Source: Candidatus Thioglobus autotrophicus
GTDB taxonomy: Bacteria > Pseudomonadota > Gammaproteobacteria > PS1 > Pseudothioglobaceae
DNA: 59,905 nt
NCBI GenBank assembly: GCA_022448455.1
Contig: JAKUUR010000009.1
Location: 1-59,905 of the forward strand
Direction: 5' to 3'
Part shown: positions 11,224-32,384 of the stretch, piece by piece
Numbering within the stretch: the first letter of the stretch is position 1
How the letters are laid out: each line of letters opens with the position of its first letter
Notes under the pieces: generated by a model
The model's input: the letters and a program-made list of their open reading frames with translations, nothing else
The model's database searches: none
What the model was told of the DNA's origin: nothing
Made by a program: the position numbers and the translations under genes

Positions 11224-11237
11224 ATTAATCTTGATAA

Positions 11238-16568: not shown

Positions 16569-18062
16569 TTAGGCGTCTTTGCCGCTTTCAAAGTGAAATT
16601 GTGCGCCTTTTCGAATTCCAGAAGGCCACCTTGATGTGATTGTTTTTAGTTGAGTGTAAAAACGCACACCCTCCATGCCGTGAATTGAAGAACCGCCAAA
16701 AAGTGAACGTTTCCAGCCACCAAAGCTGTGCATAGCGACCGGAACAGGGATAGGTATATTCACGCCCACCATGCCTACTTTAACGTGTGAGGTAAAGTGT
16801 CGTGCGGTGTCTCCATCACGAGTAAAGATAGCGGTGCCATTGCCAAATTCATGGTCGTTAACAAGAGTTAATGCCTCATCATAACTTGACACTCTTAAAA
16901 CTGATAAAACAGGTCCAAAAATTTCATCGGTATAAATTGACATATTAGAGGTCACATTATCAAACAAGCAACCACCAACGAAGAAACCATCTCTTTTTGT
17001 TTCAGATCTTCCATCAACTCTGAGCTCGGCGCCTTCGTTTATACCTGCCTCAATGTAAGACAAAATCTTTTCTTGACTCTGCTTTGAGATAACTGGTCCC
17101 ATTTCAACTTCTGGTTCATTGTATGCGCCAATTTTTAAAGATTTAATTTTTGGCATTAGAGACTGAATTAAATCTTCTGCAGTCTCATCTCCAACAGCAA
17201 CCACGACCGAGATAGCCATACAACGCTCACCAGCAGAGCCATAAGCCGCACCAATAATCGCATCGCTGCTTTGTTCTAAATCAGCATCAGGCATGACAAT
17301 CATGTGGTTTTTTGCGCCACACAGGGCCTGAACGCGTTTGTTGTGACTCGAACCCTTATGATATATGTACTCACCTACAGGTGTTGAGCCTACAAAGCTA
17401 ATCGCCCTAACAGCGTCGTTAGTGAGGATTTCATCTACCGCCTCCTTGTCACCAACAACGGTATTGAGGACACCATTTGGTAGACCTGCTTCATGCATTA
17501 ATTCGGTAAGCCTTAATCCACAAGAGGGTACCTTTTCTGAAAGCTTTAAAACAAAGGTATTGCCACATGCAATAGCAACTGGGTACATCCACATCGGTAC
17601 CATTGCAGGAAAATTAAAAGGAACTATGCCTGCGCAGACCCCAATCGGTTGGCGCAAGTTATAGCTATCAATACCAGTTGAAACATCAGCACTAAAGTCA
17701 GATTTAAGATGATTATTAATTGCTGTACAGTATTCAACAACTTCTAATCCTCTTCCAACCTCACCTTTAGCATCAGCAAAGGTCTTACCGTGATCTTGAG
17801 AGATTAGTTTGGCTAATTCATCGGTGTGTTTAATAATGAGGTCACGATAATTAAACATTATTTGCGCGCGCTTTGACGCTGTTACTTGGGACCAGGAGGC
17901 AAGCTTTTCATTGGCAACCTTAATAGCTTTTTGGACGTCATTAGCACTTGCTCCTTGTATTTGTTTTGTTATTTTCCCGGTTGAAGGGTCATAAATGTCA
18001 AACAAAGTTTCTGAAGTACCAGTGACGTTATCTCCGTCGATGATGTGTTGCAATGTAATCAT
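16569..18062 (-). CDS. iolA: Methylmalonate/malonate-semialdehyde dehydrogenase (CoA-acylating)
   Basis: A 497-residue aldehyde dehydrogenase of the MmsA/IolA subfamily. Visible are PFNFPAMVPMWMYPVAIACGN, the catalytic Cys281 in GSAGERCMA and the C-terminal FGGWKRSLFGG. IolA turns malonate semialdehyde into acetyl-CoA with NAD and CoA, the last step of inositol breakdown. It is the last gene of the long minus-strand inositol operon, 23 bases after iolJ, which favours IolA over the valine-pathway MmsA. It converges with putA 30 bases away; a weak hairpin lies between. Confidence 0.93.
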   Translation of the reverse strand: MITLQHIIDGDNVTGTSETLFDIYDPSTGKITKQIQGASANDVQKAIKVANEKLASWSQVTASKRAQIMFNYRDLIIKHTDELAKLISQDHGKTFADAKGEVGRGLEVVEYCTAINNHLKSDFSADVSTGIDSYNLRQPIGVCAGIVPFNFPAMVPMWMYPVAIACGNTFVLKLSEKVPSCGLRLTELMHEAGLPNGVLNTVVGDKEAVDEILTNDAVRAISFVGSTPVGEYIYHKGSSHNKRVQALCGAKNHMIVMPDADLEQSSDAIIGAAYGSAGERCMAISVVVAVGDETAEDLIQSLMPKIKSLKIGAYNEPEVEMGPVISKQSQEKILSYIEAGINEGAELRVDGRSETKRDGFFVGGCLFDNVTSNMSIYTDEIFGPVLSVLRVSSYDEALTLVNDHEFGNGTAIFTRDGDTARHFTSHVKVGMVGVNIPIPVPVAMHSFGGWKRSLFGGSSIHGMEGVRFYTQLKTITSRWPSGIRKGAQFHFESGKDA

Positions 18063-18085: not shown

Positions 18086-18916
18086 TTACTGCCCTAGTAA
18101 ACGGATTATTTTACTAGCTGTAGAGCACATATTTGGAATTACTTGCTGCATTATAGTAATACGATCAAACAAATCAGGGCTGGACTCAAGAGTGGCTCGC
18201 AATGAGGTGCCAAATTTTTTTCGCAAAGTGGTACCAACATTGAATTTGGCTACTTGACGTGATGCCATTATTTGAATATCCTTGTTTTCAAGGCCACTAG
18301 TTCCATGAATTACCAATGGCAGACTTAAAGCTTCTTCCAACTCGGTAAAACGGTCTAAGTCGATTGCTACAGATCGGTCTTCCAAACGGTGCACATTACC
18401 TATTGAAATTGCCAGTGAGTCAGGTTTCCCTTGTTCTTCCATGGCTACAGCCTCAGTTACTTCTGTTAGGGCAGAACGGATATGGTCACGACCACTTGCA
18501 TAGGGCACCGAGCCCACTTCAGCCTCTACCGATGTGCCTTGAGGGTGCGCATAGGAAACAATGTCGCGGATAGCGGCGATATTTTCAGAGATAGGTAACT
18601 GAGAGCCATCAAACATTACGGAAGTAAATCCAGTATCAACAGCTTGTTTAACTATATCAATTTCGTAGGTATGGTCAAGATGCAGACATACTGGAACCTG
18701 AGCATTTTCGGCCATAGGTCTTAACATGCCGATAACTTGCTCCATAGGCATAAATTGGCGCATATCGAGATTGATGGAGAGAATTACTGAAGCATTGCGT
18801 GCTTCTGCAGCATCAACAACTGCACGCGCATCTTCGTAGCCAAATACATTGAAGCAGGCGACAGCATAACCCCCATCTTGGGCTGGTATAAGAATATCTT
18901 TAAGATTAGTAAGCAT
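18086..18916 (-). CDS. iolJ: Class II aldolase, IolJ-like (6-phospho-5-dehydro-2-deoxygluconate aldolase)
   Basis: A 276-residue class II fructose-bisphosphate-aldolase-family protein. Zinc-site motif CLHLDHT, VMFDGSQLP and the sugar-phosphate motifs VHRLED and IHGTSGLE are visible. In the inositol pathway IolJ splits DKGP into dihydroxyacetone phosphate and malonate semialdehyde. The context (between iolA and an iolB) supports that over glycolytic aldolase. It is notable because the IolC protein of this operon carries a fused C-terminal DUF2090 aldolase-like domain, so two aldolase types coexist. A tagatose-bisphosphate-type aldolase is the alternative. Confidence 0.83.
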   Translation of the reverse strand: MLTNLKDILIPAQDGGYAVACFNVFGYEDARAVVDAAEARNASVILSINLDMRQFMPMEQVIGMLRPMAENAQVPVCLHLDHTYEIDIVKQAVDTGFTSVMFDGSQLPISENIAAIRDIVSYAHPQGTSVEAEVGSVPYASGRDHIRSALTEVTEAVAMEEQGKPDSLAISIGNVHRLEDRSVAIDLDRFTELEEALSLPLVIHGTSGLENKDIQIMASRQVAKFNVGTTLRKKFGTSLRATLESSPDLFDRITIMQQVIPNMCSTASKIIRLLGQ

Positions 18917-18921: not shown

Positions 18922-19761
18922 TTATTTAAATTTATTAAGCATATCTTGCATGCCAGGGATGGTATCTAGCTGATAGGCATGATCTTTGTGAAAATTCATA
19001 TGCAATGGGCGCTGGGTTTCTCCAGCCAGAATGGTGAAATAATACATTTCATATCCAGGAGCTGCTACACAAGGGTGATAACCTTTATCAAAAATAAAGG
19101 TCGATCCATTGCGTATATGATAGACTGGACCATAGTCCTTCCCATCTGGAGTTAAAAACTGGGCACCAAAGCCATGAGGCGGGTTAAAGCGAAAGTTATA
19201 AACTTCATTGTGACGACTCTCTTCAGGCAGTCTGTCTATTTCATGTTTATGAGGTGGAAAGCCAGACCATCCACCTGCACCTACGGTAAATAGTTCACTA
19301 ACCAACAGTTTGCCAACCTTGCCAGCTGGATCCTTACCCAGAATATGTTTAATTTTACGATGGGTTTTAGTGTCATCAGAGCCGTACTGAACTGTATCAA
19401 TATCGTCTTCCCTTATAACAAAGGCGCTGTGGGTTTGATTATGCTTGGCTCCCGAAATGAAGACTTCTACAGCGTCACTGACACAGCTCAGTGTGGCTTC
19501 ACAGTCCACCGGTATGTAAACACCTTCAGGATTTCCTTCCCAGATATGCTGACGTTTCCCAACCTGTTTGAAAGTTTGATTTTGTACTTGTACATCAATA
19601 CTTCCAGTGGCTGGCACTATGCAAGTTTCATAATCAGCTAGTTGATAGCTGTATGATTCACCAGACTTTAGCTTAATGATATTGAAATAGCATAGGGGCA
19701 CTATGTCATGGTTACAATCTACAATTGCCTGATTATTGTTATTATGTTGAGGGATATGCAT
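18922..19761 (-). CDS. iolB: 5-deoxy-glucuronate isomerase, first copy
   Basis: About 279 residues, double-cupin IolB family. PPHKHEIDRLPEESRHNEVYNFRFNPPHGFGAQ carries the metal-binding His/Glu set (first 20 residues of the signature are PPHKH to NEVY). The GYHPCVAAPGYEMYYFTILAG tail is also conserved. The ATG at 19761 is preferred over the upstream GTG because GTGGAG lies at ribosome-binding distance and the kinase gene stops 2 bases before it. IolB isomerises 5-deoxyglucuronate to DKG. A second, diverged IolB sits at 27762-28562. Confidence 0.88.
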   Translation of the reverse strand: MHIPQHNNNNQAIVDCNHDIVPLCYFNIIKLKSGESYSYQLADYETCIVPATGSIDVQVQNQTFKQVGKRQHIWEGNPEGVYIPVDCEATLSCVSDAVEVFISGAKHNQTHSAFVIREDDIDTVQYGSDDTKTHRKIKHILGKDPAGKVGKLLVSELFTVGAGGWSGFPPHKHEIDRLPEESRHNEVYNFRFNPPHGFGAQFLTPDGKDYGPVYHIRNGSTFIFDKGYHPCVAAPGYEMYYFTILAGETQRPLHMNFHKDHAYQLDTIPGMQDMLNKFK

Positions 19762-19763
19762 AC

Positions 19764-20762
19764 TTAACTCCACTTTGTTGTTGGTTTTATCATCATTTTT
19801 TTTTGTAGTAACTTAATTTCCTGTAAGTTGGGCATAGCACTAACACAGCCTTGCTGGGATACTACTAAAGCTGCTGCCGCACTGCCAGCCTCAATGGCTT
19901 GTTGCCAGTCACCAGAAGACATATAGTTCATTACCACGTTACCTAGAAAAGCATCACCAGAACCATAAGGCTTAAGGGCGGGTAGAGTATAAATTCCGGT
20001 ATCAAGTCGAGCCTGACCAGAAAAAAGGCTGCAACCCTTTTCGCCACGCTTAAGGATCATCAATTGGTTATGGGCGGCACATTGCTCAACCTGTGTTTTA
20101 ATATCTTGTTGTAGAATTTTAAATTCCTCTTCATTGCCGACTAATACATGCGCTTTTTCCGCTGCTTTTTGGTAGGCTGAACGGGTAGTTTGCTGATCGG
20201 GCCAGTTCCAGGGTCGATAGTCCAAATCTAGCCAAACCTGACAATCATTTTGTTGTGCATGCTCCATCATTTCAAGGGTCTGGTTTCGTGAATCAGTCTC
20301 AATCAGACTGGTGCCAGTCACAATCAGATTGCTGCTTTGGGTAATGGCCAGTCGTATAGCTTCATCACAGGTAATTCGAAGATCTGCAGGATTATTACGG
20401 TATATTACTACTTCGCAGTCCTCCTGACGCTCTTCGGCAATTGCTAGACTGGTACGTTCGTCACCATAAGTTGTTTGCATTAATTGTAGATCAATGCCTT
20501 CAGTTTTAAGGCGCTGCCGCACATACTCACCGACAGGATCGTCGGACAAAGCCGAGATAAGGCCTACTTCACCTCCTGCACGCTTCATAGCTACAGCAAT
20601 ATTAGCGCCAGAGCCACCTACATCACTAGCAAATAAGCCTGCATCGCGAGTTTTAATTCCTACAGGCTGTGGATAAAGGTCAAGGCCAGCTCGCCCTACT
20701 ACCAAAGCACTCCATACTCGATTATCTCGGAAATGCAGATGTGATACTTTTATTTCAGACAT
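19764..20762 (-). CDS. PfkB-family sugar kinase, paralogue of IolC
   Basis: A protein of about 332 residues in the ribokinase/PfkB family. Substrate-side motif GGSGANIAVAMKRAG near residue 50, NEEEFKIL mid-protein, and the catalytic GSGDAF with Asp near residue 270. It resembles the kinase half of IolC at 25849-27765 (VGRAGLDLY against LGRAAVDLY) but lacks the DUF2090 extension. It lies between an iolB and a Gfo/Idh gene with short overlaps, so it probably phosphorylates DKG or a related deoxy sugar acid. Why the operon has two such kinases is unclear. ATG at 20762 is chosen over TTG one codon upstream. Confidence 0.82.
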   Translation of the reverse strand: MSEIKVSHLHFRDNRVWSALVVGRAGLDLYPQPVGIKTRDAGLFASDVGGSGANIAVAMKRAGGEVGLISALSDDPVGEYVRQRLKTEGIDLQLMQTTYGDERTSLAIAEERQEDCEVVIYRNNPADLRITCDEAIRLAITQSSNLIVTGTSLIETDSRNQTLEMMEHAQQNDCQVWLDLDYRPWNWPDQQTTRSAYQKAAEKAHVLVGNEEEFKILQQDIKTQVEQCAAHNQLMILKRGEKGCSLFSGQARLDTGIYTLPALKPYGSGDAFLGNVVMNYMSSGDWQQAIEAGSAAAALVVSQQGCVSAMPNLQEIKLLQKKMMIKPTTKWS

Positions 20763-21879
20763 CAAGCCACTGAGCAGTAAGTGCAGAACGATCTATGGCG
20801 TCCATTACTCTTTCGATTTTTAGACCATCAGCAAAGTTTGGCCAGACTGGCTGACCTGTTTCAATTGCATCCAGCAAATGTTTAAGTTCGCATACCTTGA
20901 CGTCGATAAAGCCGAGGCTATGCCCTGCATTCGGTAAAAAGGCATCATATGGTGGCTGAGCTGGACCACTTAAAATGGTTTTAAAACCCTCTTGTCTGGG
21001 ATCGTCACTACGTGTGTAAAGCTTGATCTCATTCAGGCGCTCCTGGTCGTGACAGATCATGCCTTGTGAACCGTGAATTTCCCAACGCAATCCACACTTT
21101 CTTCCCCAAGCAACTCGACTTACACGTAAGGTTCCCTTAATTCCACTCTCAAAATGAGCCATTGCTGTACAAATATCATCATTGTCAACTACTAATGTTT
21201 GCCCTTGATTTTTTGGATCAGAACGCTCTTTATGAACCGTATCATAATCTCCCACTAATCGAGTTATTTCGCTACCTGTCATATAATGAGCCATACTAAT
21301 CAAGTGACACATAACATCGGCATTAGAGCCAGTACCTGAAGCTTCACGGCTCATTCGCCAAGAATGGGGTCGATCCGGATCGGCCTCATTGTCGACATCG
21401 TAGATTCCATGAAAGCCGATTACTCGACCTATAACACCCTCATCAATAAGTTTTCTAGCACTTTGAACGGCAGGATTTTGAGTATAGTTATAGCCAAGTA
21501 TAGTTTGAGTATTACTGGCTTGTGCTGCTGCAAACATAGCTTCAGAGTCAGCTAAATTGGTAGACATAGGTTTTTCACACCAGACATGCTTGCCAACCTT
21601 TAGAGCAGCTACTGAGATTTCTTTATGTAATGTATTTGGAACACAGACAGAAATCAGTTGAACTTTGGGATCATTTACTACGTCCATCCAAGTATTCGTG
21701 CAACGAGCAAAACCCATTTCCTTTCGCATAACTTCAGCTCTATCAGCTTTGTAATCACAAATCATCTCTAGACTAGGTCGCAGACCATCTCCAAAAACAC
21801 TGCCTGCAGAAGCATAAGCAATAGAATGAGCCTTACCCATAAAAGCCGTGCCAATAACCCCTACGCCAATTGTTTTCAT
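20755..21879 (-). CDS. Gfo/Idh/MocA-family oxidoreductase (probable cyclitol dehydrogenase)
   Basis: A 374-residue two-domain NAD(P)-dependent dehydrogenase. The Rossmann motif GVIGTAFMGKAHS is at the start and the catalytic motif WCEKPMS near residue 95; the C-terminal beta-sheet domain is full length. It is clearly distinct from the IolG-like protein at 29399-30379. Family members oxidise myo-, scyllo- or chiro-inositol, or other sugars. The ATGA overlap with iolE upstream and the overlap with the kinase downstream place it inside the pathway. A scyllo- or chiro-inositol dehydrogenase is plausible; the exact substrate cannot be read. Confidence 0.83.
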   Translation of the reverse strand: MKTIGVGVIGTAFMGKAHSIAYASAGSVFGDGLRPSLEMICDYKADRAEVMRKEMGFARCTNTWMDVVNDPKVQLISVCVPNTLHKEISVAALKVGKHVWCEKPMSTNLADSEAMFAAAQASNTQTILGYNYTQNPAVQSARKLIDEGVIGRVIGFHGIYDVDNEADPDRPHSWRMSREASGTGSNADVMCHLISMAHYMTGSEITRLVGDYDTVHKERSDPKNQGQTLVVDNDDICTAMAHFESGIKGTLRVSRVAWGRKCGLRWEIHGSQGMICHDQERLNEIKLYTRSDDPRQEGFKTILSGPAQPPYDAFLPNAGHSLGFIDVKVCELKHLLDAIETGQPVWPNFADGLKIERVMDAIDRSALTAQWLDV

Positions 21880-22781
21880 TCTCTTTCCTCTATTTCAATT
21901 CCAAATTTTTCACAATAACTTTGAATATTTTTGTAACCCATTGTCACGTATGTTAAAGGGTGCGCTTTGGCTGGGTCTTGTTCCGCCTCAACAACTATCC
22001 AGCCACTGTAGTCAGCATCACTAACCAGTTTGAATAGATCAGGAAAATTAAAGTCACCATCTCCAGGCACCGTAAATACGCCACTTAATACGGCATTTAA
22101 AAAGCTTGAATCAGTATTTAGTGCTTCATCTAACATTGTTTTTCTTACATCTTTGCAATGAATGTGGAGTACTCTGTCACTGTACTTTTCATAGACCCTT
22201 AGCGGATCTGAGCCAGCATATATTAAGTGGCCCGTATCTAATACCAATCCAAGATCATTACTTGTCATTGCCATTAGTTTGTCCACCTCCTCTTCGATTT
22301 GAACTATTGTCCCCATATGGTGATGGTAGGCCAGTTGCATTCCATGTGATAATGTATATTTTGCCAACTGGTTAAGTTTGATAGTCCACTCTTGCCACTG
22401 ATCTTCAGAAATAACTGGACGTTGTGAAAGTGGCACAGTTATTTCACCTTGAACACAAGCATCCATTTCGCAATAGACGATAACTTCTGTCCCTAGATCT
22501 TTCAGAAGTTGCATGTGCGGTGTTATTCTTTTTATTTCATCTTCAAGACTGTCTACTAGTAAATTCCCATCGAACCAGCTAGAGACTACCTCCATTTCAT
22601 ATTTATTAAATAGAGGCTCTAAGATTGATTTTTCTCGAGGCCATTTACCTCCTAATTCAAAGCCACTAAAGCCAGCTTGTTTACCCTCTTGCAAGCAATG
22701 CTCCACTGTAGTATCTCGCCCCAATTCTGGCATGTCATCGTTAGTCCATGAAATCGGGCTAACACCAATTTTTACACTCAT
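21876..22781 (-). CDS. iolE: myo-inosose-2 dehydratase
   Basis: A 301-residue xylose-isomerase-like TIM barrel. The opening IGVSPISWTNDDMPELG is a hallmark of IolE. Metal-ligand motifs include AYHHHMGT, LDTGHL, HCKDV and the C-terminal VVEAEQDPA. It dehydrates 2-keto-myo-inositol to the trihydroxycyclohexanedione that IolD hydrolyses. A strong ribosome binding site GGAGGA precedes the ATG. It overlaps the downstream dehydrogenase by 4 bases. Confidence 0.94.
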   Translation of the reverse strand: MSVKIGVSPISWTNDDMPELGRDTTVEHCLQEGKQAGFSGFELGGKWPREKSILEPLFNKYEMEVVSSWFDGNLLVDSLEDEIKRITPHMQLLKDLGTEVIVYCEMDACVQGEITVPLSQRPVISEDQWQEWTIKLNQLAKYTLSHGMQLAYHHHMGTIVQIEEEVDKLMAMTSNDLGLVLDTGHLIYAGSDPLRVYEKYSDRVLHIHCKDVRKTMLDEALNTDSSFLNAVLSGVFTVPGDGDFNFPDLFKLVSDADYSGWIVVEAEQDPAKAHPLTYVTMGYKNIQSYCEKFGIEIEERE

Positions 22782-22811: not shown

Positions 22812-23993
22812 TCAATCAGAAAGCCTAATCCGCTGGTGTTCAGAAAGTTTTAAGCTAAAATTTTCTAGATCAAGAGAGTCTAGGAGTGCTTGTTGTGTTA
22901 CTTCAAACATGCTCAGCCCATGAAGACTAGAATACGAACTTGTATCGTAATCTAAGTTTGTTGGGAAGGGATATCCGTCTGTTGCGCAGACAAGGACATT
23001 CTTAACCAGCCTTTTCGAAAGGGTGTTATTGTTTTGATGTTTTAGTAAAGCTGGGTAAATATTCTTTATAATTTTATTGTAATCTATACGCTCCATAGCC
23101 TTACCAAAGACCGATGAAATTTGTAAAAGGTTAGCGATTCGATTAAAGTTATTTGTACTGTTTGAACCAGCTGCATGAAATAAAGCTGGATTACAAAATA
23201 TGCCATCACCTTTCTTTATTGGAACTTGAACTGCATTTTTACTAAAAAAACCTTTAAATTCTTTGTTTCTCCATGCTAAATATCCCAATTCATACTGTTG
23301 CGAATAAGGCAGTAGTAGAGTAGGCCCACTTTCAAGTGGCATATCGCTGTGTGCAATTACAGCCTGCAAAGTTAAGTGCTGAGACATGCGGTGAGTTGAG
23401 ATAGGATACTCTTGAATAGCTTCATTTTCTTGAAAGCCCAAATGGTAATCGCGATGGGGCTTTTGCATTTCACTGCCTGGCTTAACTACATTGACTTGTG
23501 CTGTCATTTGAGGGTTGGGGCCGCACCAAGACTCTGCAACTACTCTTAGGATGTTGTTAGCATAATAACTGATAAAGGCTTCAGAGTTTTCGAGGGCAAC
23601 CTTTTGAAAGCTGTTCCATATCCTTGTATTGCTACCAGAAGCGAAATGATCGTTTTTATTAGTAGCTTCATTTTTAATAATCTTGTCAAAAATAACGTTA
23701 CTCTGATCTATTACTTTCTCTTCATATAGATTACGAATAGCAAAAACTCCTGGACCTTTTTCTAAAATGTGATTCAGCTCGGTTTTTACTCTCTTTTCTT
23801 GGTTTGAGTTATCGATAAGAGGAGTGATATTTCTTGCATCATAAATTACGACATTATTTTCAACCGAATCAGCTAAAGGGTATTCCTCTTTGAGCGTTTT
23901 CTGAGAACAGGTTTGCATCAAATCATCAAGGTTAATTTCAGATTCGGTAAAAAAAACTTGCTCATGAATGGGCTGTAATACCTCTTTTTGCAT
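22812..23993 (-). CDS. Phytanoyl-CoA dioxygenase (PhyH)-family protein inside the inositol operon
   Basis: A 393-residue protein with the PhyH-type Fe(II)/2-oxoglutarate pattern: His180-x-Asp182 in PHRDYHLGF, distal His273 in LFHAAGSNS, and Arg285 in NNFNRIAN at the position expected to bind 2-oxoglutarate. Between them, MPLESGPTLLLPYSQ is the typical double-stranded beta-helix segment. The N-terminal 110 residues are unlike anything I recognise. The iolD stop lies 2 bases upstream and iolE follows 30 bases downstream, so it is co-transcribed with pathway genes. Oxidative O-demethylation of a methyl-inositol is a conjecture; no substrate can be read. Confidence 0.75.
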   Translation of the reverse strand: MQKEVLQPIHEQVFFTESEINLDDLMQTCSQKTLKEEYPLADSVENNVVIYDARNITPLIDNSNQEKRVKTELNHILEKGPGVFAIRNLYEEKVIDQSNVIFDKIIKNEATNKNDHFASGSNTRIWNSFQKVALENSEAFISYYANNILRVVAESWCGPNPQMTAQVNVVKPGSEMQKPHRDYHLGFQENEAIQEYPISTHRMSQHLTLQAVIAHSDMPLESGPTLLLPYSQQYELGYLAWRNKEFKGFFSKNAVQVPIKKGDGIFCNPALFHAAGSNSTNNFNRIANLLQISSVFGKAMERIDYNKIIKNIYPALLKHQNNNTLSKRLVKNVLVCATDGYPFPTNLDYDTSSYSSLHGLSMFEVTQQALLDSLDLENFSLKLSEHQRIRLSD

Positions 23994-23995: not shown

Positions 23996-25852
23996 TTAGT
24001 AGGGCTGTTTTGTTTTTGCTTTTTTGTATGCTTGATAAATCGTTTCACTGTTTGCATTGGAGGATACTTCTGGCACTGCAACCTCCCACCAACAACCGCC
24101 TTCTGGGCTAATTTTATGAGAATCTGTGACTAAACTTATAAGGTAAGATTTTGATGATGAACGCGCGCGGCTAAGCGCTGGTGCTAATTCTTGTATGCTG
24201 TTAACTTGTTCAGAGTTAGCTCCTAGAGCTTTTGCGTGTAGCGCAAAATTAATTTCTGGATGACCATCATCGACACTTTGACAATCTTTCAATAAATTAT
24301 TAAACGAACGATTGCCGGTTGCATTTTGAAGACGATTAATACAAGAGAATCCTCGATTGTCCAAAACAACCACAATCATCTTATGTCCTAGCATGACGCT
24401 AGTTGCCAATTCAGAGTTCAGCATTAAATATGAGCCGTCTCCAACAAGCACAATCACTTCACGGCTGGGTTCGGCCATTTTAACACCCAATCCTCCAGCT
24501 ATTTCGTATCCCATGCAAGAAAAACCGTATTCAGCATGGTAACCTCCAGCCTGCTCTGTTCGCCACAATTTATGCAATTCACTTGGCAAACTTCCTGCAG
24601 CACAAAGAACAATGTCACTGGCTATGCCATGACGTTTTATTTCACCCAGCACCTGAGCTTCAGTGGGCAAAATGTCTTCTGTTTTCGATGAATTACTAAT
24701 GGAGGTAATTTGGTCATAGTAGTTATTCCACTTGGCAATTTCTTTTTGCCCCAAGGTTAACCAAGATTGTGGTGCTTTCCAAGTTGAGAGGTGTTTATCC
24801 AATTGCAATATTCCCAGCTTAGCATCACCCCATAACGATAGTGCATTGTGTTTTATGGCGTCAAAACGAGAAACATTTAACTGTAATAGTGTTTTATTAG
24901 CAAATAGCGCTCTAGAGCCAGAAGTAAAGTCATTTAATCTTGTGCCAATAGCCAATACAACATCGGCTTGTTGTGCCAGTTTATTGGCTGCATTGGAGCC
25001 GGTTACTCCAATAGCACCAACATAGCAGGGGTGATTCCATGCCAGTGAACCTTTCCCTGCTTGGGTTTCTGCTACTGGAATTTGATATTTTTCTGCAAAT
25101 TTTTGCAATGTCTCACACGCCTTTGCATAATGCACACCGCCGCCAGCAACAATGAAAGGTTTTTTAGATTGTAACAACGCTTCAACTGCGCGAGTTAGTT
25201 CCATATTATCAAGTGCTATTTGACGAATGGAATGGGTACGCTTAATAAAAAACTCTTCGGGATAGTCAAACGCCTCTGCTTGAACATCCTGGGGCAGGGA
25301 CAAGGTTACCGGGCCACAGTTTTCTGGATCTAATAGAGTTTGCATTGCAACAGGCAAACTATTAATGATTTGTTCGGGTCTCATAATGCGATCAAAATAT
25401 CGACTCACTGGCTTAAAGCAATCATTGACACTAATTGTAGGATCTGAAAAATCCTCTAATTGCTGGAGTACAGGGTCTGGAGTTCGGCTGGCAAAAAAAT
25501 CACCCGGCAATAATAAAACTGGCAGTCTGTTAACATGGGCCAGTGCTGCGGAAGTGATCATATTGGTAGCGCCAGGTCCAATTGAGCTGGTGCAAGCCAT
25601 CATTCTCTGGCGTTTGTTGGCCTTGGCATAAGCTATAGCCGCATGAACCATTCCTTGTTCACTGTGCGCACGGAATGTAGGCAAATGCTTTTGCTGCTCT
25701 TCTAATGCCTGTCCCATGCCGGCCACATTGCCATGTCCAAAGATTGCAAAAACTCCAGCAAATATGGGTTGAACTTCATCATCAATCTTGATATGCTGTG
25801 CTGATAAATATTTAACTACGGCCTGCGCCATTGTGAGCCTAATTGTTTTCAT
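23996..25852 (-). CDS. iolD: 3D-(3,5/4)-trihydroxycyclohexane-1,2-dione acylhydrolase (ThDP enzyme)
   Basis: A 618-residue thiamine-diphosphate enzyme of IolD length. AIFGHGNVAGMGQAL and the pyrimidine-side glutamate in RAHSEQGMVHAAIAYAKA open the protein; the C-terminal GDGSYLMLNSE segment is the Mg-ThDP motif. IolD opens the cyclitol ring to 5-deoxyglucuronate. It overlaps iolC by 4 bases (ATGA), indicating translational coupling. It is the only IolD in the window, so both halves of the operon must share it. Confidence 0.95.
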   Translation of the reverse strand: MKTIRLTMAQAVVKYLSAQHIKIDDEVQPIFAGVFAIFGHGNVAGMGQALEEQQKHLPTFRAHSEQGMVHAAIAYAKANKRQRMMACTSSIGPGATNMITSAALAHVNRLPVLLLPGDFFASRTPDPVLQQLEDFSDPTISVNDCFKPVSRYFDRIMRPEQIINSLPVAMQTLLDPENCGPVTLSLPQDVQAEAFDYPEEFFIKRTHSIRQIALDNMELTRAVEALLQSKKPFIVAGGGVHYAKACETLQKFAEKYQIPVAETQAGKGSLAWNHPCYVGAIGVTGSNAANKLAQQADVVLAIGTRLNDFTSGSRALFANKTLLQLNVSRFDAIKHNALSLWGDAKLGILQLDKHLSTWKAPQSWLTLGQKEIAKWNNYYDQITSISNSSKTEDILPTEAQVLGEIKRHGIASDIVLCAAGSLPSELHKLWRTEQAGGYHAEYGFSCMGYEIAGGLGVKMAEPSREVIVLVGDGSYLMLNSELATSVMLGHKMIVVVLDNRGFSCINRLQNATGNRSFNNLLKDCQSVDDGHPEINFALHAKALGANSEQVNSIQELAPALSRARSSSKSYLISLVTDSHKISPEGGCWWEVAVPEVSSNANSETIYQAYKKAKTKQPY

Positions 25853-27765
25853 TTGCTATTTTCCTCTCTGTATTTTTTCCAAGCTTTAATTAATTCGATG
25901 TAATTACCGGCCACAGAGTCAACCAACTCTTGGTCACTTATTTTGTGTTGCATCCACTGTTTCGCTGGTTCATAAAAAATTGTCCTGCCAACTGCAAAAC
26001 CTTTACAAATCTCATATTTTGAAGCGCCAGCAAAAGATTCTTTCACAGCCTCCATAGATGCAGACAGCCCTAATAATAATACACCTTGGCAGTGTGGGTC
26101 ATGGCTCAATATGATATCACTTGCCAGTTGCCAAGACTTGTCTTGAAGTGCTGGTAATTTCCACCAATCTGGTTTAATGCCGAGATGATAAAACCTCTTT
26201 AGTATTTGGGGTATTGTAGAGGCATCCTCTTCAGACTCTGCAGGCGGGATGACTTCTAATAACAATTGATGCCCGCTTTGAACGCAAGCAGAATAGAGCT
26301 CCTTCAGTTGCCGCTCTTGCTTAAGCCTTAATTCAATAGGGTCGTCTGGATGATAAAACAACAAGCACTTTACAACATGTGTTAGTGGCCAAGACTGTAG
26401 TTTCGATCCAATTGATCCTCCACCATCGAACTCTAGAGGGCGAGAGCCAGGAAGCTCTACTGGTCTTGCAATCCACCATGGTTTTTCAGCAATAGAGTGG
26501 AGCGCTTCTTCACCATAAGTATCATCGATTAATACACCAACATTTCTCTCTGAAATATTGATTTGCTTAATAGTGCTTTCTATTGAACTCAAAAATAGTT
26601 TTTTTAGTTTAGCTATTTGATCTGGATCTTCCCCGCACTCAATCGCTAAATCATAGAGTTGCTTACGATGATCAAACGCGAATCCAAAAATTTCGGATCG
26701 TGTAGCTCTTCTCAAGCTAACTCTATGAAGGTGATTAAGGGCTTCATCTTGGCTTGGGCTTGGAATGTTGTGTGCATTATCCAAATAGTAAAACAACTCC
26801 TTTTCGCTTGGAATCGCTGGAGCGCAACCATGCCGAGAAACTACTAGTGCGCCAGAGGCATTCGCATAAGTGGCACTTTTTTCGAGACTCTCATTTCTTA
26901 AATAGCCACGCAAAAATCCAGACATGAAGGCATCACCGGCGCCAAGCACGTTTAGTATTTCGACTTGATTGCCTTTTATAACTTCAAGGTTAGCTGAACT
27001 GTCTGGAATATCACTGGTAATTACTGTGCATCCCAATGGACCAAGTTTTAATACAATGATGGTGCTGCTCAGCTTTCGAATTTGCTTTAAAGCGGTAATC
27101 GTATCTTCACTGCCACCAGCAATATGAATCTCCTCTTCGGTGCCGACAACAACATCGCAATAGGGTAGTATAGTTTGTATGTGTTGACTTACATCATCAC
27201 TTGGGACAAAACGAGATTCACCATCACCTAATCCAGCTAAACTCCACAACACAGGTCGATAATCGATGTCTACAATTACCTTGGTATTTGCTGCTTTGGC
27301 ATACTCAATAGCTTTCATGCTGGCGCTATAAGTATTGGCAGAAGAAAAATGTGTTCCTGTAATTAACAGTGCTTTACTGCTAGCAATGAATTCAGCTGTA
27401 AAGTCTTTTATGTCCACCGCCATATCTGCACAGTCTTTTCGATAAAAAATAAGTGGAAAGGTTTCTTTGTCTTGTATGCCTAGGATAACTAAACCTGTTA
27501 ATCGTTCTTTATCTGTGACAACATGGGAAACGTCTACCCCAACGCTTGCCAACTCATTGCGCACAAAACGACCCATATGTTCATCGCCAACTCGGGTGAG
27601 CATTGCGGACTTGAGTCCAAGTTTGGAACAACCGTAAGCAATATTTGCGGATGAGCCGCCAAGATATTTTGCAAAACTACCCATGTCTTCTAAGGTAGAT
27701 CCAATTTGTTGTCCGTATAAATCTACTGCCGCACGTCCTAGACAAATAATATCCAGTTTTTTCAT
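25849..27765 (-). CDS. iolC: 5-dehydro-2-deoxygluconokinase fused to DUF2090 domain
   Basis: A 638-residue fusion. Residues 1 to about 330 are a PfkB kinase (GGSSANIAYG near 36-45, catalytic GAGDAF with Asp278). From about 340 to the end lies the DUF2090 domain often fused to proteobacterial IolC (FGFAFDHRKQLYDLA at its start, GVLIDDTYGEEAL, WKLPAL, GVLLLGLSA). DUF2090 has a class I-aldolase-like barrel and is thought to do the DKGP aldolase step where IolJ is missing. Here IolJ is present as well. The stop overlaps iolD by 4 bases and the start overlaps iolB by 4. Confidence 0.92.
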   Translation of the reverse strand: MKKLDIICLGRAAVDLYGQQIGSTLEDMGSFAKYLGGSSANIAYGCSKLGLKSAMLTRVGDEHMGRFVRNELASVGVDVSHVVTDKERLTGLVILGIQDKETFPLIFYRKDCADMAVDIKDFTAEFIASSKALLITGTHFSSANTYSASMKAIEYAKAANTKVIVDIDYRPVLWSLAGLGDGESRFVPSDDVSQHIQTILPYCDVVVGTEEEIHIAGGSEDTITALKQIRKLSSTIIVLKLGPLGCTVITSDIPDSSANLEVIKGNQVEILNVLGAGDAFMSGFLRGYLRNESLEKSATYANASGALVVSRHGCAPAIPSEKELFYYLDNAHNIPSPSQDEALNHLHRVSLRRATRSEIFGFAFDHRKQLYDLAIECGEDPDQIAKLKKLFLSSIESTIKQINISERNVGVLIDDTYGEEALHSIAEKPWWIARPVELPGSRPLEFDGGGSIGSKLQSWPLTHVVKCLLFYHPDDPIELRLKQERQLKELYSACVQSGHQLLLEVIPPAESEEDASTIPQILKRFYHLGIKPDWWKLPALQDKSWQLASDIILSHDPHCQGVLLLGLSASMEAVKESFAGASKYEICKGFAVGRTIFYEPAKQWMQHKISDQELVDSVAGNYIELIKAWKKYREENSK

Positions 27766-28562
27766 GCTTTATCCAACATCCACTGGTGATCTGGATGGTT
27801 CTTAAAAATCCATTGACGTTTTGGTCCTGCCATTACATTTAAATAGTAAGAATCGTATCCATAGGGAACGCCAACGGGATGATAACCGCGTGGCACTAGA
27901 ACAACGCATTTATCTTCCACCGCCATAGTCTCGTCAATTTCTAAATCATCGGTATATACACGCTGAAAAACAAAACCTTGTGGTGGGTTTATTCGATGAT
28001 AATAGGTTTCCTCTAAATAGGATTCAACTGGAGGGTTGTCAGAGTCATGTTTATGGGGTGGGTAACTTGACCAGTTTCCAGCCGGAGTTTTGACTTCGAC
28101 AACCAGCAAACTATCAGCTTCATCTTGTTCCGGTAAGATATTACAAATAGACCTTGTATTGCTTCCCTCTCCTCGAACCTCATTAGTCATGTCTTCAGGC
28201 TTAATATGTCTGGCAGGATAATTTCCAAAACCAGGCGCAGTTGCTATTGCCAGCTCAAGTTTGGTTATCGCTTTGATAGATACTTGACTGTTATTGGGCG
28301 CATATACTGCATGCGGTTTTTTATCTTCAAATACACTCATCCTATCGCCAAGACTATGAAAAGTATGCTTATCTACTCTAATATCAGCCTTGCCAGATAA
28401 GATTACCAAGCATGATTCTTTATCTGGATCAATCCAATTCAAAGTTTGTTGAGGTGCCAGTTCATGTGCTTGAAATCCGACATATTCCCAATTGGCTGAG
28501 TCTGGTGTAATGTTTTGATAACAACCATCTGAACTTAATTTAGGACGAGATAAAAGAGACAT
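27762..28562 (-). CDS. iolB: 5-deoxy-glucuronate isomerase, second copy
   Basis: About 266 residues, IolB family, with PPHKHDSDNPPVESYLEETY for the cupin metal site and GYHPVGVPYGYDSYYLNVMAG near the end. The ATG at 28562 is chosen because AAGGAA stands at proper distance and the RpiR gene stops 2 bases before; a longer frame from 28619 would overlap that gene by 55 bases. Compared with the copy at 18922-19761 the sequence is strongly diverged, so this is not a recent duplication. It overlaps iolC by 4 bases. Confidence 0.9.
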   Translation of the reverse strand: MSLLSRPKLSSDGCYQNITPDSANWEYVGFQAHELAPQQTLNWIDPDKESCLVILSGKADIRVDKHTFHSLGDRMSVFEDKKPHAVYAPNNSQVSIKAITKLELAIATAPGFGNYPARHIKPEDMTNEVRGEGSNTRSICNILPEQDEADSLLVVEVKTPAGNWSSYPPHKHDSDNPPVESYLEETYYHRINPPQGFVFQRVYTDDLEIDETMAVEDKCVVLVPRGYHPVGVPYGYDSYYLNVMAGPKRQWIFKNHPDHQWMLDKA

Positions 28563-28564
28563 AT

Positions 28565-29386
28565 TTAATTTCCTTGTTGATGGTATCCGATGGATATACA
28601 TATAGCCTGAACAAGGCACATTGTTGCTCCTAAAGACCTAAAAGTGTGAATCTCTGCTTCATGTATGCAAAATAAATAATCTGCAAGATGGGCAATAGGA
28701 TTTAGCTTTGTATCGGTCAGCAGAATAACCGTTGCATTCGATTGTTTTGCTTCCTTAACGGCTTCAGTTGTCGAAGCAGAATAAGGGTTATAAGTGATTG
28801 CAATTAATACAGTTTTCTCATCAAGCCAATGTGATAGTTTTTCTTCTGCATCTACGTTATTGGTAATACGGCATCGAATGCCTAGATTATTTAACATATA
28901 ATAAAAATAGTTTGCTATAGGTTGAGCTCTATTCGAACCACATAAAATTACTTCATTAGCCGTACACAACGCCTTCACGGATTCCTCTATTAGCTCTTCA
29001 TTTATTTGTTCAGATAGTAGTTTTGTGGCAGCAATATTACGACTAGTAACATCATGAAATATATTCGAACTATTCGTACTTACATCGCCTACAGTGACTT
29101 TTTGCACATCAGTGATACGCTGATGATAGTTGATAGCAGATTGCGAAATTTTGACCTTGAATAGCTCTTGCAGTTCTGCAAAACCACTAAAACCAAAATG
29201 CTTGGCAAAACGCACCAGGGTAGAAGGATAGACCCCAATATCTTCAGCAATCGCCGCAAGAGTGTTTAATGCGAGTTTTTGAGGTTGATCGATAATGTAG
29301 AATGCTATCAACTTCATTTTTTTACTTAATTTGGGGTAGTTTTCTTGTAATAAACTATTCAAATCGTTAATATTTTCTGGCAGCAT
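28565..29386 (-). CDS. RpiR-family transcriptional regulator of the inositol operon
   Basis: A 273-residue regulator with an N-terminal RpiR-type helix-turn-helix (residues about 1-75, with TLAAIAEDIGVYPSTLVRFAKHFGFSGF) and a C-terminal SIS sugar-phosphate domain (LCGSNRAQPIANYF, IAITYNPYSASTTEAVKEA). RpiR proteins sense phosphorylated sugars; in inositol clusters they act as IolR repressors. It sits inside the operon it probably controls, 12 bases after iolG and 2 bases before iolB. Candidate operators are the inverted repeats at 33387-33439. Confidence 0.88.
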   Translation of the reverse strand: MLPENINDLNSLLQENYPKLSKKMKLIAFYIIDQPQKLALNTLAAIAEDIGVYPSTLVRFAKHFGFSGFAELQELFKVKISQSAINYHQRITDVQKVTVGDVSTNSSNIFHDVTSRNIAATKLLSEQINEELIEESVKALCTANEVILCGSNRAQPIANYFYYMLNNLGIRCRITNNVDAEEKLSHWLDEKTVLIAITYNPYSASTTEAVKEAKQSNATVILLTDTKLNPIAHLADYLFCIHEAEIHTFRSLGATMCLVQAICISIGYHQQGN

Positions 29387-29398: not shown

Positions 29399-30379
29399 TT
29401 ATAAGTTAACAGGGTTTCCGCTTTCAAAAGATTGTTTAGCCGCTTCGGCAATTTTCAATGCAAGAACACCATCTAAAATGTCTACGCTAGGCTTAACACC
29501 TGTTTGAACTGATTTCATAAAATGTACCAACTCGTTGTGATATGCCTTTTCATATCTTTCTAAGAAAAAATATTTTGCTTTAGCTTGGTTAATTCCATTT
29601 GCGTTGCTTAGCACCACATTATCTTCAAGTGCATTTTGTACTTGCAACATTCCTTTTTGTCCAAAAACTTCAATTCTCTGGTCATAACCAAAAGCCGCTT
29701 GACGCCCATTAATAATAGTTGCAATCACACCCTTCTTCATGGTTAATATGGCACTGGCAGTATCCACATCACCATAGCTAGCAATATCATCATTTGTAGC
29801 AGTGGCAGCAACATATATATTGCTTGGTGTGTCTTTAAGTATCCAGCAGGCCATGTCAAAATCGTGGATCATCATGTCATAAAACAACCCGCCAGAACTT
29901 GCAATATATTCCATAGAAGGCGGTTCTGGGTCATGAGAGTTAATTATCAAAGACTGAACTGAGCCGATAAGGTTTGCATCAACTTTATTCTTCAAGCTGA
30001 CCATATGTGGGTCAAATCGCCTGTTAAAACCAATCATGCATACAATGCCACTTTCTTTAACAACTTTGGCACACGATAAAGCTCTATCGAGACTTAAATC
30101 AATTGGTTTTTCGCAAAAAACAGGCTTACCTGCTCGGGCACACCGTTCTATTAGATCTGCATGTGTAGCAGTACTGCTGGCAATGATAAAGGCATCTATT
30201 TCGTTATTATTGAACGCTTGGTCTAAGCTTAAGACGATGGCATTGTACTTTTTGGCAAGCTGCTCTGCCGCTTCTGGATGGAGGTCAACAACAGAATGAA
30301 GCGTAGTTGTTGCTTCACCCGCTATTGCTATTGCATGGACGGCACCTATGCGACCTGCACCAATCAAACATATTTTCAT
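29399..30379 (-). CDS. iolG: Inositol 2-dehydrogenase
   Basis: A 326-residue Gfo/Idh/MocA enzyme. N-terminal LIGAGRIGAVHA binds NAD; FCEKPIDLSLD has the catalytic lysine near residue 95; GGLFYDMMIHDFDMACWI is the conserved IolG segment with the catalytic Asp and His. It oxidises myo-inositol to 2-keto-myo-inositol, the entry step. It lies directly after the transporter genes and before the regulator. Confidence 0.92.
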   Translation of the reverse strand: MKICLIGAGRIGAVHAIAIAGEATTTLHSVVDLHPEAAEQLAKKYNAIVLSLDQAFNNNEIDAFIIASSTATHADLIERCARAGKPVFCEKPIDLSLDRALSCAKVVKESGIVCMIGFNRRFDPHMVSLKNKVDANLIGSVQSLIINSHDPEPPSMEYIASSGGLFYDMMIHDFDMACWILKDTPSNIYVAATATNDDIASYGDVDTASAILTMKKGVIATIINGRQAAFGYDQRIEVFGQKGMLQVQNALEDNVVLSNANGINQAKAKYFFLERYEKAYHNELVHFMKSVQTGVKPSVDILDGVLALKIAEAAKQSFESGNPVNL

Positions 30380-30411: not shown

Positions 30412-31185
30412 TTATTTGCTATTTTTTAATGCTGACAATTCCTTATTGCCAGACATCATAAATTGTAATTCTTCATAATTAATCTCTCCAGCAAGAGCAG
30501 TGCCAAGAGTTTCGCCTCGAGATAGAACTGTAAATTTGTCACCTACAGCTAAGGCATGTGAAACGTTATGCGATATAAATACTACTGCAACTCCTTTTTC
30601 CCGGACTTTTTCTACAGTTTTTAATACATTAGAGGTCTGGTATACACCCAAAGCTGATGTAGGCTCATCAAGTATTAATATTTCAGCACCAAAAAATACG
30701 GCACGGGCAATGGCAACGGTTTGCCTTTCACCACCTGAAAGAGTTCCTATTGATTGATTCGGGTCTCGTAATTGGATCCCTATTTTTTCCATTTCTGACA
30801 TCAAAATTGAGTTACATTTCTCAAAGTCCATTACAGTGATTGGACCTATTTTTTTTGTCAGTTCTCTACCGAGCCAAAAATTACGCGACACTGACATTAA
30901 TGGGATCAATGCCAAATCTTGATAAACTGTAGCAATTCCAGAATCTATTGCTTCACGGGGCCCTTGCAATACAGTGGGTTTTCCATTAATATTTACTTGC
31001 CCAGCTGTGGGCTGGTGTACCCCAGACATGATTTTAATCAATGTTGATTTTCCTGCGCCGTTATCGCCCAATAAGCAGTGGCACTCTCCCCTATTAATAG
31101 AAATTGAAACCCCTTTAAGGGCATTTACATTACCAAAACTTTTATAAATGTCTGTAAGTTCCATCAGTGGTGAAGTACTCATCAT
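30412..31185 (-). CDS. Sugar/inositol ABC transporter ATP-binding protein (single NBD)
   Basis: A 257-residue ATPase with Walker A GDNGAGKST, signature LSGGERQTVAIARA, Walker B LILDEPTSAL and the H-loop VFISHN. Only one nucleotide-binding domain is present, as in FrcA-type transporters, whereas typical CUT2 ATPases such as RbsA carry two fused domains. It should energise the permease encoded upstream, with which it overlaps by 4 bases. Probable cargo is inositol, from context. Confidence 0.92.
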   Translation of the reverse strand: MMSTSPLMELTDIYKSFGNVNALKGVSISINRGECHCLLGDNGAGKSTLIKIMSGVHQPTAGQVNINGKPTVLQGPREAIDSGIATVYQDLALIPLMSVSRNFWLGRELTKKIGPITVMDFEKCNSILMSEMEKIGIQLRDPNQSIGTLSGGERQTVAIARAVFFGAEILILDEPTSALGVYQTSNVLKTVEKVREKGVAVVFISHNVSHALAVGDKFTVLSRGETLGTALAGEINYEELQFMMSGNKELSALKNSK

Positions 31186-32288
31186 TTCGATCCTGTGATT
31201 AATTTACGAACATGAGTATTGAGTATCACTGCTAATAGTAAAAGCACTCCTAGGAAAACTCGAAATAATGAGCTCTCCACGCCAATAAAAAACAAACCTT
31301 GTTGCACTACTCCAAATATGATTGCGCCCAGAGCTGCACCAATAACAGATCCATAACCTCCAGTTAATAAGGCGCCACCTATGACCACGGAAATAATTGC
31401 TTCAAATTCTTTAAGGATGCCTCTATCCGCTGAAGCCGAGCCAAACTCAATAACTTGAGTGGTGGCGAATACAGTAGCACAAAAAGCAGTAAAGACAAAC
31501 ATGAGGATTTTAACTTTGTTAACCGGTACGCCAATATGCCGTGCAGCTTGTGCATCGCCACCGGAGGCGTAAATCCAATTACCAAAACGAGTTTTTGTTA
31601 ACAAAAAATGACCAAAAATAATTAGACCCAGTGCCCAAACCATCATTGCAGGGATTCCAGATACAACTGGCTGGCCAGCTTTAGTGCCAGCTACAAAGGT
31701 TTGAATCCAGCCCTGTTCAGCAAGCCATTCGAATAAGCCTGAGAATATTTTTCCACCAAAGATAGGCGCTAACCAGTCATTTTGAGAAAATTCGTTTATA
31801 CCTCCAATAATGGTTTTTTTGGTACTGGCAATAGCAACAAAAATTGTCAAACCTCGCAAAATATATAAAAAAGCAAGACTAACAATAAAGGATGGTAGAT
31901 TTGTTTTGACTGTAATATAGCCAATTAAAGCGCCTATCGACATCGCTACAGCAAAGGCTGTAAGAATACTGAGCCAAACAGGCCAACCCCAAACAATAGA
32001 AGTGACAGCGATCACTATGCCAGAAAAACCTATCATCGATCCAACTGAAAGATCAAATTCACCAGCAATCATCAACAGGCAGGCACCAACAGCAATAATA
32101 ATGAACTGAGAAGAGACTATGCCCCAATTCATGGATCCTTCTAGAGAAAACATGCCAGTATCATGTGCTACCAGAAAAAAGAAAAGAAAAACCAACATAA
32201 CGCCAACTATGGCTCCTAGATCTGGGCGTAGCATAGCGTTTTTAAAATAAGCGCGAATATGCGAAATATTTTTTATATTTATAGACAT
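31182..32288 (-). CDS. Sugar/inositol ABC transporter permease (CUT2/BPD_transp_2)
   Basis: A 368-residue membrane protein with about ten hydrophobic segments. GEFDLSVGSMIGFSGI and NWIYASGGDAQAARHIGVPVNKVKI are hallmarks of the RbsC/FrcC permease family. It forms the membrane channel of the inositol-type importer, between the binding-protein gene (96 bases upstream, with a terminator-like hairpin between) and the ATPase gene (4-base overlap). Confidence 0.93.
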   Translation of the reverse strand: MSINIKNISHIRAYFKNAMLRPDLGAIVGVMLVFLFFFLVAHDTGMFSLEGSMNWGIVSSQFIIIAVGACLLMIAGEFDLSVGSMIGFSGIVIAVTSIVWGWPVWLSILTAFAVAMSIGALIGYITVKTNLPSFIVSLAFLYILRGLTIFVAIASTKKTIIGGINEFSQNDWLAPIFGGKIFSGLFEWLAEQGWIQTFVAGTKAGQPVVSGIPAMMVWALGLIIFGHFLLTKTRFGNWIYASGGDAQAARHIGVPVNKVKILMFVFTAFCATVFATTQVIEFGSASADRGILKEFEAIISVVIGGALLTGGYGSVIGAALGAIIFGVVQQGLFFIGVESSLFRVFLGVLLLLAVILNTHVRKLITGSK

Positions 32289-32329
32289 GATTCAGTCTAA
32301 TTTAGATCTTTTAGGGAAGGTAAAAAAAA

Positions 32330-32364
32330 TGCTGCCCACTTCAGCAGATCAACGGTGGGCAGCA
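32330..32364 (-). terminator. Intrinsic-terminator-like hairpin between binding-protein and permease genes
   Basis: A perfect 10-bp stem (TGCTGCCCAC pairing with GTGGGCAGCA) encloses a 15-base loop and is followed, reading on the minus strand, by eight T residues at 32322-32329. It lies after the binding-protein stop and before the permease start, so partial termination would leave more binding-protein mRNA than permease mRNA. It may also protect the 3' end of the short transcript. Confidence 0.85.
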
Positions 32365-32384
32365 AGGCAAAACCTAATTAACTA

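Follow-up and report, generated by a model that had tools for sequence, protein, structure and literature searches.

Organization of the inositol operon

The window, which is the whole stretch of 59,905 nucleotides analysed here, carried a cluster of inositol genes on its minus strand (Table 1). The genes were arranged in the order RpiR-type regulator (29386), iolB, iolC-DUF2090, iolD, PhyH, iolE, Gfo, kin2, iolB2, ald2 and mmsA (16569). Upstream of the regulator, iolG was followed by a sugar ABC transporter. The PhyH gene was surrounded by core genes of the canonical iol pathway (IolG-E-D-B-C-J-A). No known step of this pathway uses a PhyH-type oxygenase. An earlier note on this DNA had described the gene as locked between its neighbours, and the gaps were confirmed, with PhyH lying 2 bases after iolD and 30 bases before iolE. 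The one named CoA-linked enzyme in the operon was the CoA-acylating semialdehyde dehydrogenase that ends the inositol pathway (iolA/mmsA). This argued against a CoA substrate for PhyH.

Table 1. Genes of the inositol operon in the window, with their coordinates and the matches that identify them
Feature	Coordinates	Strand	Basis
iolA/mmsA, CoA-acylating methylmalonate/malonate-semialdehyde dehydrogenase	16569..18062	-	TIGR01722, 656 bits (cut-off 448.5)
ald2, class II aldolase, IolJ-like	18086..18916	-	PF01116; block member
iolB2, second IolB-like isomerase	18922..19773	-	TIGR04378, 173 bits, under cut-off 205; block member
kin2, second IolC-like PfkB kinase	19764..20765	-	TIGR04382, 272 bits, under cut-off 300; block member
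Gfo/Idh/MocA dehydrogenase (GfoLG), scyllo-inositol-dehydrogenase-like	20755..21879	-	Closest solved structure 5ya8; block member
iolE, inosose dehydratase	21876..22781	-	TIGR04379, 398 bits (cut-off 290)
PhyH-domain Fe(II)/2-oxoglutarate oxygenase (predicted)	22812..23993	-	ORF with ATG start, 393 aa; Pfam and motif
iolD, trihydroxycyclohexane-dione hydrolase	23996..25852	-	TIGR04377, 931 bits (cut-off 715)
iolC-DUF2090 fusion (kinase + aldolase)	25849..27765	-	NF047869, 852 bits (cut-off 600)
iolB, 5-deoxy-glucuronate isomerase	27762..28619	-	TIGR04378, 344 bits (cut-off 205)
RpiR-type regulator (IolR-like)	28565..29386	-	HTH_6 and SIS domains
iolG, inositol 2-dehydrogenase	29399..30379	-	TIGR04380, 392 bits (cut-off 355)
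Sugar ABC transporter	30412..33347	-	ATPase 30412-31185, permease 31182-32288, binding protein 32385-33347

Conservation of the PhyH protein

PF05721 (PhyH) was the sole Pfam family matched by the ORF at E 0.01 (E 1.2e-23, 85 bits, cut-off 22), and four more members scored 86-110 bits. The Pfam domain and the HxD...H...R pattern were common to the window protein and the phytanoyl-CoA dioxygenase family, which includes human PHYH (2a1x) and TlxJ (7vbq). These two were matched by profile with E values of 1.5e-6 and 5.9e-6, respectively. Single-sequence matches to the solved PhyH members were weak, with E 0.029 at best. The window protein also differed in length, with 393 aa compared to a 308-aa chain, and in the position of its gene amid inositol genes.

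The motif residues were H180-x-D182, H273 and R285 in the numbering of the window protein. In an alignment of 52 members, of which 11 came from the window's own genus, H180, D182 and R285 were invariant and H273 was present in 51. The intact pattern claimed in the earlier note was confirmed by this alignment together with the PF05721 score above cut-off. The polar residues D115, H116, N122, R124, N127, K131, Q177, Q210 and Q291 were also invariant in all 52 members of this subfamily alignment. When the gene was compared with those of three congeners, dN was 0.076, 0.124 and 0.218 and dS was 0.36, 0.80 and 1.64. The resulting dN/dS of about 0.13-0.21 indicated purifying selection. The enzyme would be expected to depend on iron and 2-oxoglutarate, and it is a member of a distinct PhyH subfamily tied to inositol catabolism.

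No NCBIfam equivalog fitted the ORF; the lone match, to T4SS_DotA, was noise at 14.9 bits against a cut-off of 500. At the same Pfam threshold, no domain of a ferredoxin oxygenase complex of the MocDEF type was detected, PhyH being the single hit. An AlphaFold model made from three sequences (window, L001 and L002) gave an unusably low pLDDT of 30.5. Viral contigs were scanned twice for PhyH relatives, and none was found there.

PhyH within the genus

An unbroken PhyH gene was found in 11 of the 29 genomes of the window's genus, and the identical 11 contained iolD over the cut-off. The order iolD-PhyH-iolE was kept in all 11, namely the window and 10 others. The sister genus had a single genome with iolD (G039). 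Its cluster consisted of iolB-iolC-iolD-iolE-mmsA with iolG and the same transporter as in the window, and it was devoid of PhyH, Gfo, kin2, iolB2 and ald2. This suggested that the five genes were gained or lost together, which is the simplest reading of a comparison with this one sister-genus cluster.

In a twelfth genus genome (G018, 70% complete), PhyH was broken and no iolD scored over the cut-off. The remnant covered residues 10-102 and 265-392 only. At this locus (L042, G018:C10, 4976-5729), a 228-aa PhyH frame was found without about residues 103-264, the HxD motif included, and iolD was missing between iolC and PhyH. This state was either a deletion or an assembly fault in an incomplete genome. 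G018 was scored as PhyH-negative in the Fisher test of the genus and was kept outside the 65 carriers described below.

Co-occurrence of PhyH with iolD

PhyH was counted at E <=1e-30 and iolD at E <=1e-150. In an even phylum sample of 397 genomes, each at least 90% complete, iolD was found over the cut-off in 27/27 PhyH carriers, compared to 72/370 non-carriers. When the window's genome was removed, 26 of 26 carriers had iolD (Fisher p 1e-17). The family sample contained 150 genomes from 149 genera of a family that was, by resemblance, probably Rhodobacteraceae. Here, iolD was present in 30/30 carriers and in 51/120 non-carriers (p 4e-10). One of these carriers (G606) had an iolD fragment under the cut-off and a PhyH gene cut by a contig end; it was counted as positive for both genes in the Fisher test and was excluded from the tree. 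When all samples were pooled, each of the 65 distinct carrier genomes contained iolD sequence, 64 of them over the cut-off and G606 as the fragment.

Scoring of iolD covered at most three (phylum) or seven (family) first-look candidates per genome, so that some iolD genes may be missed, in non-carriers too. The Fisher tests take genomes as independent and thereby overstate significance, an effect limited in the family sample by its near one-genome-per-genus composition. Ectoine hydroxylase, a 2-oxoglutarate oxygenase of similar frequency (25/397 genomes), served as the control, and genome size was controlled through this comparison only. It showed no association with iolD, which was present in 7/25 carriers of the control gene and in 92/372 other genomes (p 0.81). 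Within the genomes sampled, the presence of PhyH thus implied that of the inositol pathway, also where the genes lay apart, and the pathway did not imply PhyH. Such a one-way dependence is the pattern expected for an optional entry enzyme.

Gene neighbourhoods of the homologues

Homologues with 37-49% identity were found in 47 records of a plasmid collection, and named isolates carrying the gene included Sinorhizobium, Pantoea, Ruegeria and Paracoccus. The earlier note had proposed a search for PhyH next to iolD or iolE in other genomes. Such genes were found, in or beside iol clusters of several clades including an actinobacterium. A core iol gene lay within 9 kb of PhyH at 11 of 26 loci in the phylum sample, 7 of 28 in the family sample and 5 of 15 plasmid loci. 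The 15 plasmid loci were hand-picked from the 47 records; L020 was excluded, and additional loci fetched later stayed outside all counts. Locus labels came from BLAST comparison with the window proteins and a limited reference set of annotated neighbours, where the lack of a label does not prove the lack of a gene. Each stretch was trimmed to about 9 kb, and longer clusters were therefore partly seen.

Three contexts were observed. In the first, PhyH lay within an iol operon in the order iolD-iolE-PhyH-iolB (G474, G439, G336, G560 and G571, and G554 up to the contig end). In the second, a sugar ABC transporter and iolB accompanied PhyH beside a variant iolD and a Gfo-TIM-Gfo-LacI set (G478, G290, G446, G255, G270 and G516). 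G464 had the same transporter-iolB-PhyH portion, with iolD 13 kb distant. PhyH was also found amid iol genes in Thioclava, Shinella and, within an iol island, the actinobacterium Tsukamurella. In the third context, PhyH was solitary with a divergent LacI regulator, at times with a short-chain dehydrogenase.

According to the earlier note, homologues lying consistently outside iol clusters, with another substrate, would speak against its proposal. This stood with respect to position, since for 35 of 54 sampled homologues the surrounding 9 kb contained no core iol gene and no strong match to Gfo. It did not stand with respect to the genome, where all 35 had iolD elsewhere (G606 as the fragment). 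In a quick phylogeny of 79 members, whose branch support came from SH-aLRT only, the linked or unlinked state required 11 changes, at least 8 of them forced by well-supported branches. This indicated that iol linkage arose or was lost many times.

Some loci showed other arrangements. A recurrent non-iol set was found near PhyH in L094, L031, L127, L130 and L017. It comprised a succinate-semialdehyde dehydrogenase, an HpcH-type aldolase, a hydroxyacid dehydrogenase and a Gfo, and it may represent a further catabolic branch for substrates of this class. One record (L126, MT835877.1; 75% GC) bears the label 'UNVERIFIED: Bacteriophage sp.' but resembles a bacterial contig; it contained LacI-PhyH together with Gfo, iolG-like and TIM-barrel genes. 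In S. meliloti Ak57, the record labelled plasmid pSymB (L018, CP090106.1) was 3.72 Mb long. This is about the size of the S. meliloti chromosome, and the replicon is perhaps mislabelled.

The accompanying block and the variant inositol cluster

The solved structure closest to the block Gfo (E 2.2e-103) was 5ya8, a scyllo-inositol dehydrogenase that also has L-glucose dehydrogenase activity. Related Gfo enzymes with 37-44% identity were found in 13 other PhyH-bearing loci. The block-type Gfo was not exclusive to PhyH genomes. It was present in 29 of 30 carriers, but also in 40 of 51 non-carriers with iolD.

IolB2 and kin2 scored under the curated NCBIfam cut-offs, and ald2 passed none. The three resembled genes of a variant cluster. 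IolB2 was 56-59% identical to an iolB from Marinovum, G439, G474 and G206, and ald2 was 40-42% identical to the aldolase adjoining those iolB genes. Where the stretch was long enough to show them, iolJ, iolB2-like and kinase genes were also present, namely in G206, G551 and Marinovum. These features of IolB2, kin2 and ald2 suggested that the cell handles a ring-opened product unlike the canonical one.

The variant cluster was seen at Rhodobacteraceae-like loci (L028, L077, L078, L084, L091, L092, L095, L098 and L121; L075 and L076 partly). Its iolD was low-scoring, at about 774-803 bits in the genomes scored. It contained an IolE-like TIM barrel and two Gfo enzymes and, where the stretch reached, its own IolB, kinase and IolJ. 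The TIM barrel of Marinovum scored 173 bits, under the iolE cut-off of 290. In L075 and L076, the IolJ-IolB-kinase-Gfo-Gfo portion adjoined an ordinary iolD. A low-scoring iolD with an adjacent Gfo also occurred in genomes without PhyH (G175 and G268).

A proposed entry step into inositol catabolism

We propose that the PhyH product is an entry enzyme for modified cyclitols such as O-methyl-inositols. The conserved intact motif, the operon position, the co-occurrence with iolD and the repeated linkage to iol genes were all observed. The earlier note had suggested an extra entry step into inositol catabolism, and this role is well supported by the co-occurrence, the negative control and the repeated linkage. 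The partners also resemble cyclitol enzymes, since the block Gfo is closest to a scyllo-inositol dehydrogenase structure and the binding proteins next to PhyH in Shinella and G290 matched a rhizopine-binding model, under its cut-off. The expression table of Ensifer adhaerens described below points the same way. We infer with good confidence that the enzyme has a cyclitol as its substrate and supplies the inositol pathway. For O-demethylation of a neutral methyl-inositol as the reaction, the case is evenly balanced.

In the proposed mechanism, the oxygenase would convert a modified cyclitol into a form that the inositol pathway can use. The likeliest chemistry would be hydroxylation of an O-methyl-inositol at its methyl carbon. 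The resulting hemiacetal would then break down to free inositol and formaldehyde, while 2-oxoglutarate would be converted to succinate and CO2. The free inositol (myo, scyllo or chiro) could be a substrate of either IolG or the scyllo-inositol-dehydrogenase-like Gfo. The oxidised product would continue down IolE-IolD-IolB-IolC or enter a second branch of IolB2-kin2-ald2.

Demethylation is favoured by the abundance of O-methyl-inositols in plants that host many carriers, by the logic of rhizopine use and by a precedent for demethylation with 2-oxoglutarate. Many plants are described as rich in methyl-inositols (PMC5889025), and pinitol was given as the most concentrated component of a Mimosa root exudate (PMC5789663). 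Rhizopine demethylation by MocDEF in R. leguminosarum and S. meliloti is proposed to follow a similar logic, in which an O-methyl group is oxidatively removed from a cyclitol that enters the inositol pathway. MocDEF is a ferredoxin oxygenase complex, according to the title of Bahar 1998 as cited in PMC5789663, in contrast to the single PhyH-domain protein of the window. The precedent is methylguanidine, whose demethylation is described as beginning with a 2-oxoglutarate oxygenase (PMC12508155). This Fe(II)-dependent hydroxylase, MgdH, is likewise a catabolic-operon oxygenase whose product, minus the methyl carbon, feeds the pathway of the operon, as that paper describes it. MgdH differs in working on an N-methyl group with the aid of a lyase.

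Possible fate of the C1 unit

The gene context does not favour demethylation. Formaldehyde-handling genes would be expected, though not required, as companions of a demethylase. When 71 loci were queried with single purU, FrmA and GFA sequences, such genes did not accompany PhyH apart from three stray matches. These were purU in Peteryoungia, a GFA-family gene 10 kb off in S. meliloti and an FrmA-like gene of 26% identity; the first two were the query genes themselves. Glutathione-dependent formaldehyde dehydrogenase was absent from the window's genome and was found in 1 of the 11 genus genomes with unbroken PhyH and in 3 of 29 overall. PurU was over the cut-off in 0/29. Formate-tetrahydrofolate ligase was present in 10 of 11 unbroken-PhyH genomes, compared to 13 of 18 others, so that a folate route is possible and not tied to PhyH. 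A second IolB, kinase and aldolase would also be superfluous for a product that was just free myo- or scyllo-inositol, which counts against demethylation. Simple demethylation leaves this doubling of the lower pathway unexplained.

The window also carried, at 8806-12788 on the minus strand, an MttB-family protein (PF06253) beside an 805-aa FAD oxidoreductase-GcvT fusion of the dimethylglycine/sarcosine dehydrogenase type, whose GcvT domain is folate-binding. The pair perhaps serves demethylation of methylamine or glycine betaine feeding folate. Together with the formate-tetrahydrofolate ligase, it suggested that folate could take up the C1 unit. Two full copies of the ligase gene were found in the window's genome (G000:C38:213-1877 and G000:C23:43088-44752). 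Most genus genomes had one copy, and G017 also had two.

Alternative reactions

Hydroxylation of a deoxy- or C-methyl cyclitol is an unlikely but real rival to demethylation. The candidates include quercitol, viburnitol, cyclohexanetetrols and compounds of the laminitol or mytilitol type. Inositol or an inositol-like dehydrogenase substrate would be formed with no release of formaldehyde. This is consistent with the lack of linked formaldehyde genes, and the doubled IolB2-kin2-ald2 set suits a substrate that is still unusual after ring opening. PhyH enzymes are mostly hydroxylases and marine algae produce such cyclitols, but these are less widespread than methyl-inositols in legumes and the other plants that host many carriers.

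It is a little less probable that PhyH, instead of opening the pathway, works with Gfo, IolB2, kin2 and ald2 in a variant form of it, where its substrate would be an intermediate or a stereoisomer. The genus fits this, since PhyH accompanies exactly these four genes there and G039 has none of the five. Elsewhere, PhyH lies near the variant cluster with its iolJ, iolB2-like and kinase genes and its iolD with Gfo-TIM-Gfo. However, the iolB adjoining PhyH at six loci (ABC-PhyH-iolB or iolE-PhyH-iolB) was canonical, with 49-51% identity to the window iolB and 25-30% to iolB2. In G336, G560, G571 and G554, PhyH lay in an iol operon whose stretch contained neither iolJ nor iolB2; a block-type Gfo was present in that stretch in G336 and elsewhere in the genome in the other three. 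The frequency of this Gfo in iolD genomes without PhyH (40/51) also argues against a variant-pathway role.

An indirect association is improbable. PhyH would then act on an unrelated plant or algal compound and share a habitat and a flexible operon with the inositol genes. The many homologues that are solitary with a divergent LacI, sometimes with a short-chain dehydrogenase, would fit such a role. Against it, 0 of 65 carrier genomes were without iolD sequence (the broken copy of G018 lying outside this count), and PhyH was repeatedly placed inside iol operons. The contrast within the family and the ectoine-hydroxylase control made shared habitat alone unlikely.

The least probable alternative, which we consider very doubtful, is demethylation of rhizopine-like amino-cyclitols (3-O-methyl-scyllo-inosamine), a task ascribed to MocDEF that an enzyme of unrelated type would here perform: the rhizopine-binding model NF052284 was the lone NCBIfam match at E 1e-20 of the window's binding protein and also matched the PhyH-adjoining binding proteins of Shinella and G290, but the scores of 275, 265 and 273 bits lay under the cut-off of 420, and the same transporter as in the window is found in the PhyH-less cluster of the sister genus. 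The inositol pathway is described as required for rhizopine use (PMC5789663) and an Ensifer adhaerens 'phytanoyl-CoA dioxygenase' as going down with a rhizopine-binding protein (PMC6637203), but rhizopines are described as rare in nature (PMC6668481).

Relation to published records

The entry step looks like the use of a known enzyme class in a known pathway for an apparently undescribed reaction. In ranked listings of open-licence literature, which leave out most subscription papers and preprints, no description of this enzyme or of bacterial methyl-inositol degradation was among the matches listed, and no marine methyl-inositol source was among the best 15 of 215 papers. The words dioxygenase, pinitol and methyl were absent from the main text of an inositol-cluster survey (PMC9430895). 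In the Mimosa exudate study (PMC5789663), mocDEF homologues are named in the section on Rhizobium, and the main text makes no mention of phytanoyl.

We tentatively consider, at somewhat less than even likelihood, a widespread and undescribed route by which plant-associated, soil and marine bacteria would consume inositols that carry methyl groups or other modifications. PhyH would strip or hydroxylate the cyclitol, the scyllo-inositol-type Gfo would oxidise it, and the IolB2-kin2-ald2 set of some lineages, including that of the window, would handle products that the canonical enzymes leave aside. If true, this would give a function to a PhyH subfamily currently annotated as 'phytanoyl-CoA dioxygenase', and it bears on the diet of root-associated and marine bacteria. 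The strict link to inositol catabolism and the presence of the gene in Sinorhizobium, Pantoea, Ruegeria and Paracoccus isolates make the modified-inositol question directly testable.

A candidate member of the subfamily appears in the published transcriptome of Ensifer adhaerens OV14 (PMC6637203), where 9 of 7074 genes are given as down at every time point from D1 to D7. Six of the nine are three ABC transporter genes with the rhizopine-binding protein, a Gfo, an inositol 2-dehydrogenase and IolC. The seventh (OV14_RS14055), with a distant locus number, is the 'phytanoyl-CoA dioxygenase', which the table of that paper describes only as acting on phytanoyl-CoA. Its published identities are 86% to S. 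meliloti and 78% to A. tumefaciens. The S. meliloti and Agrobacterium members of the subfamily were 76% identical to each other, which is comparable to these figures.
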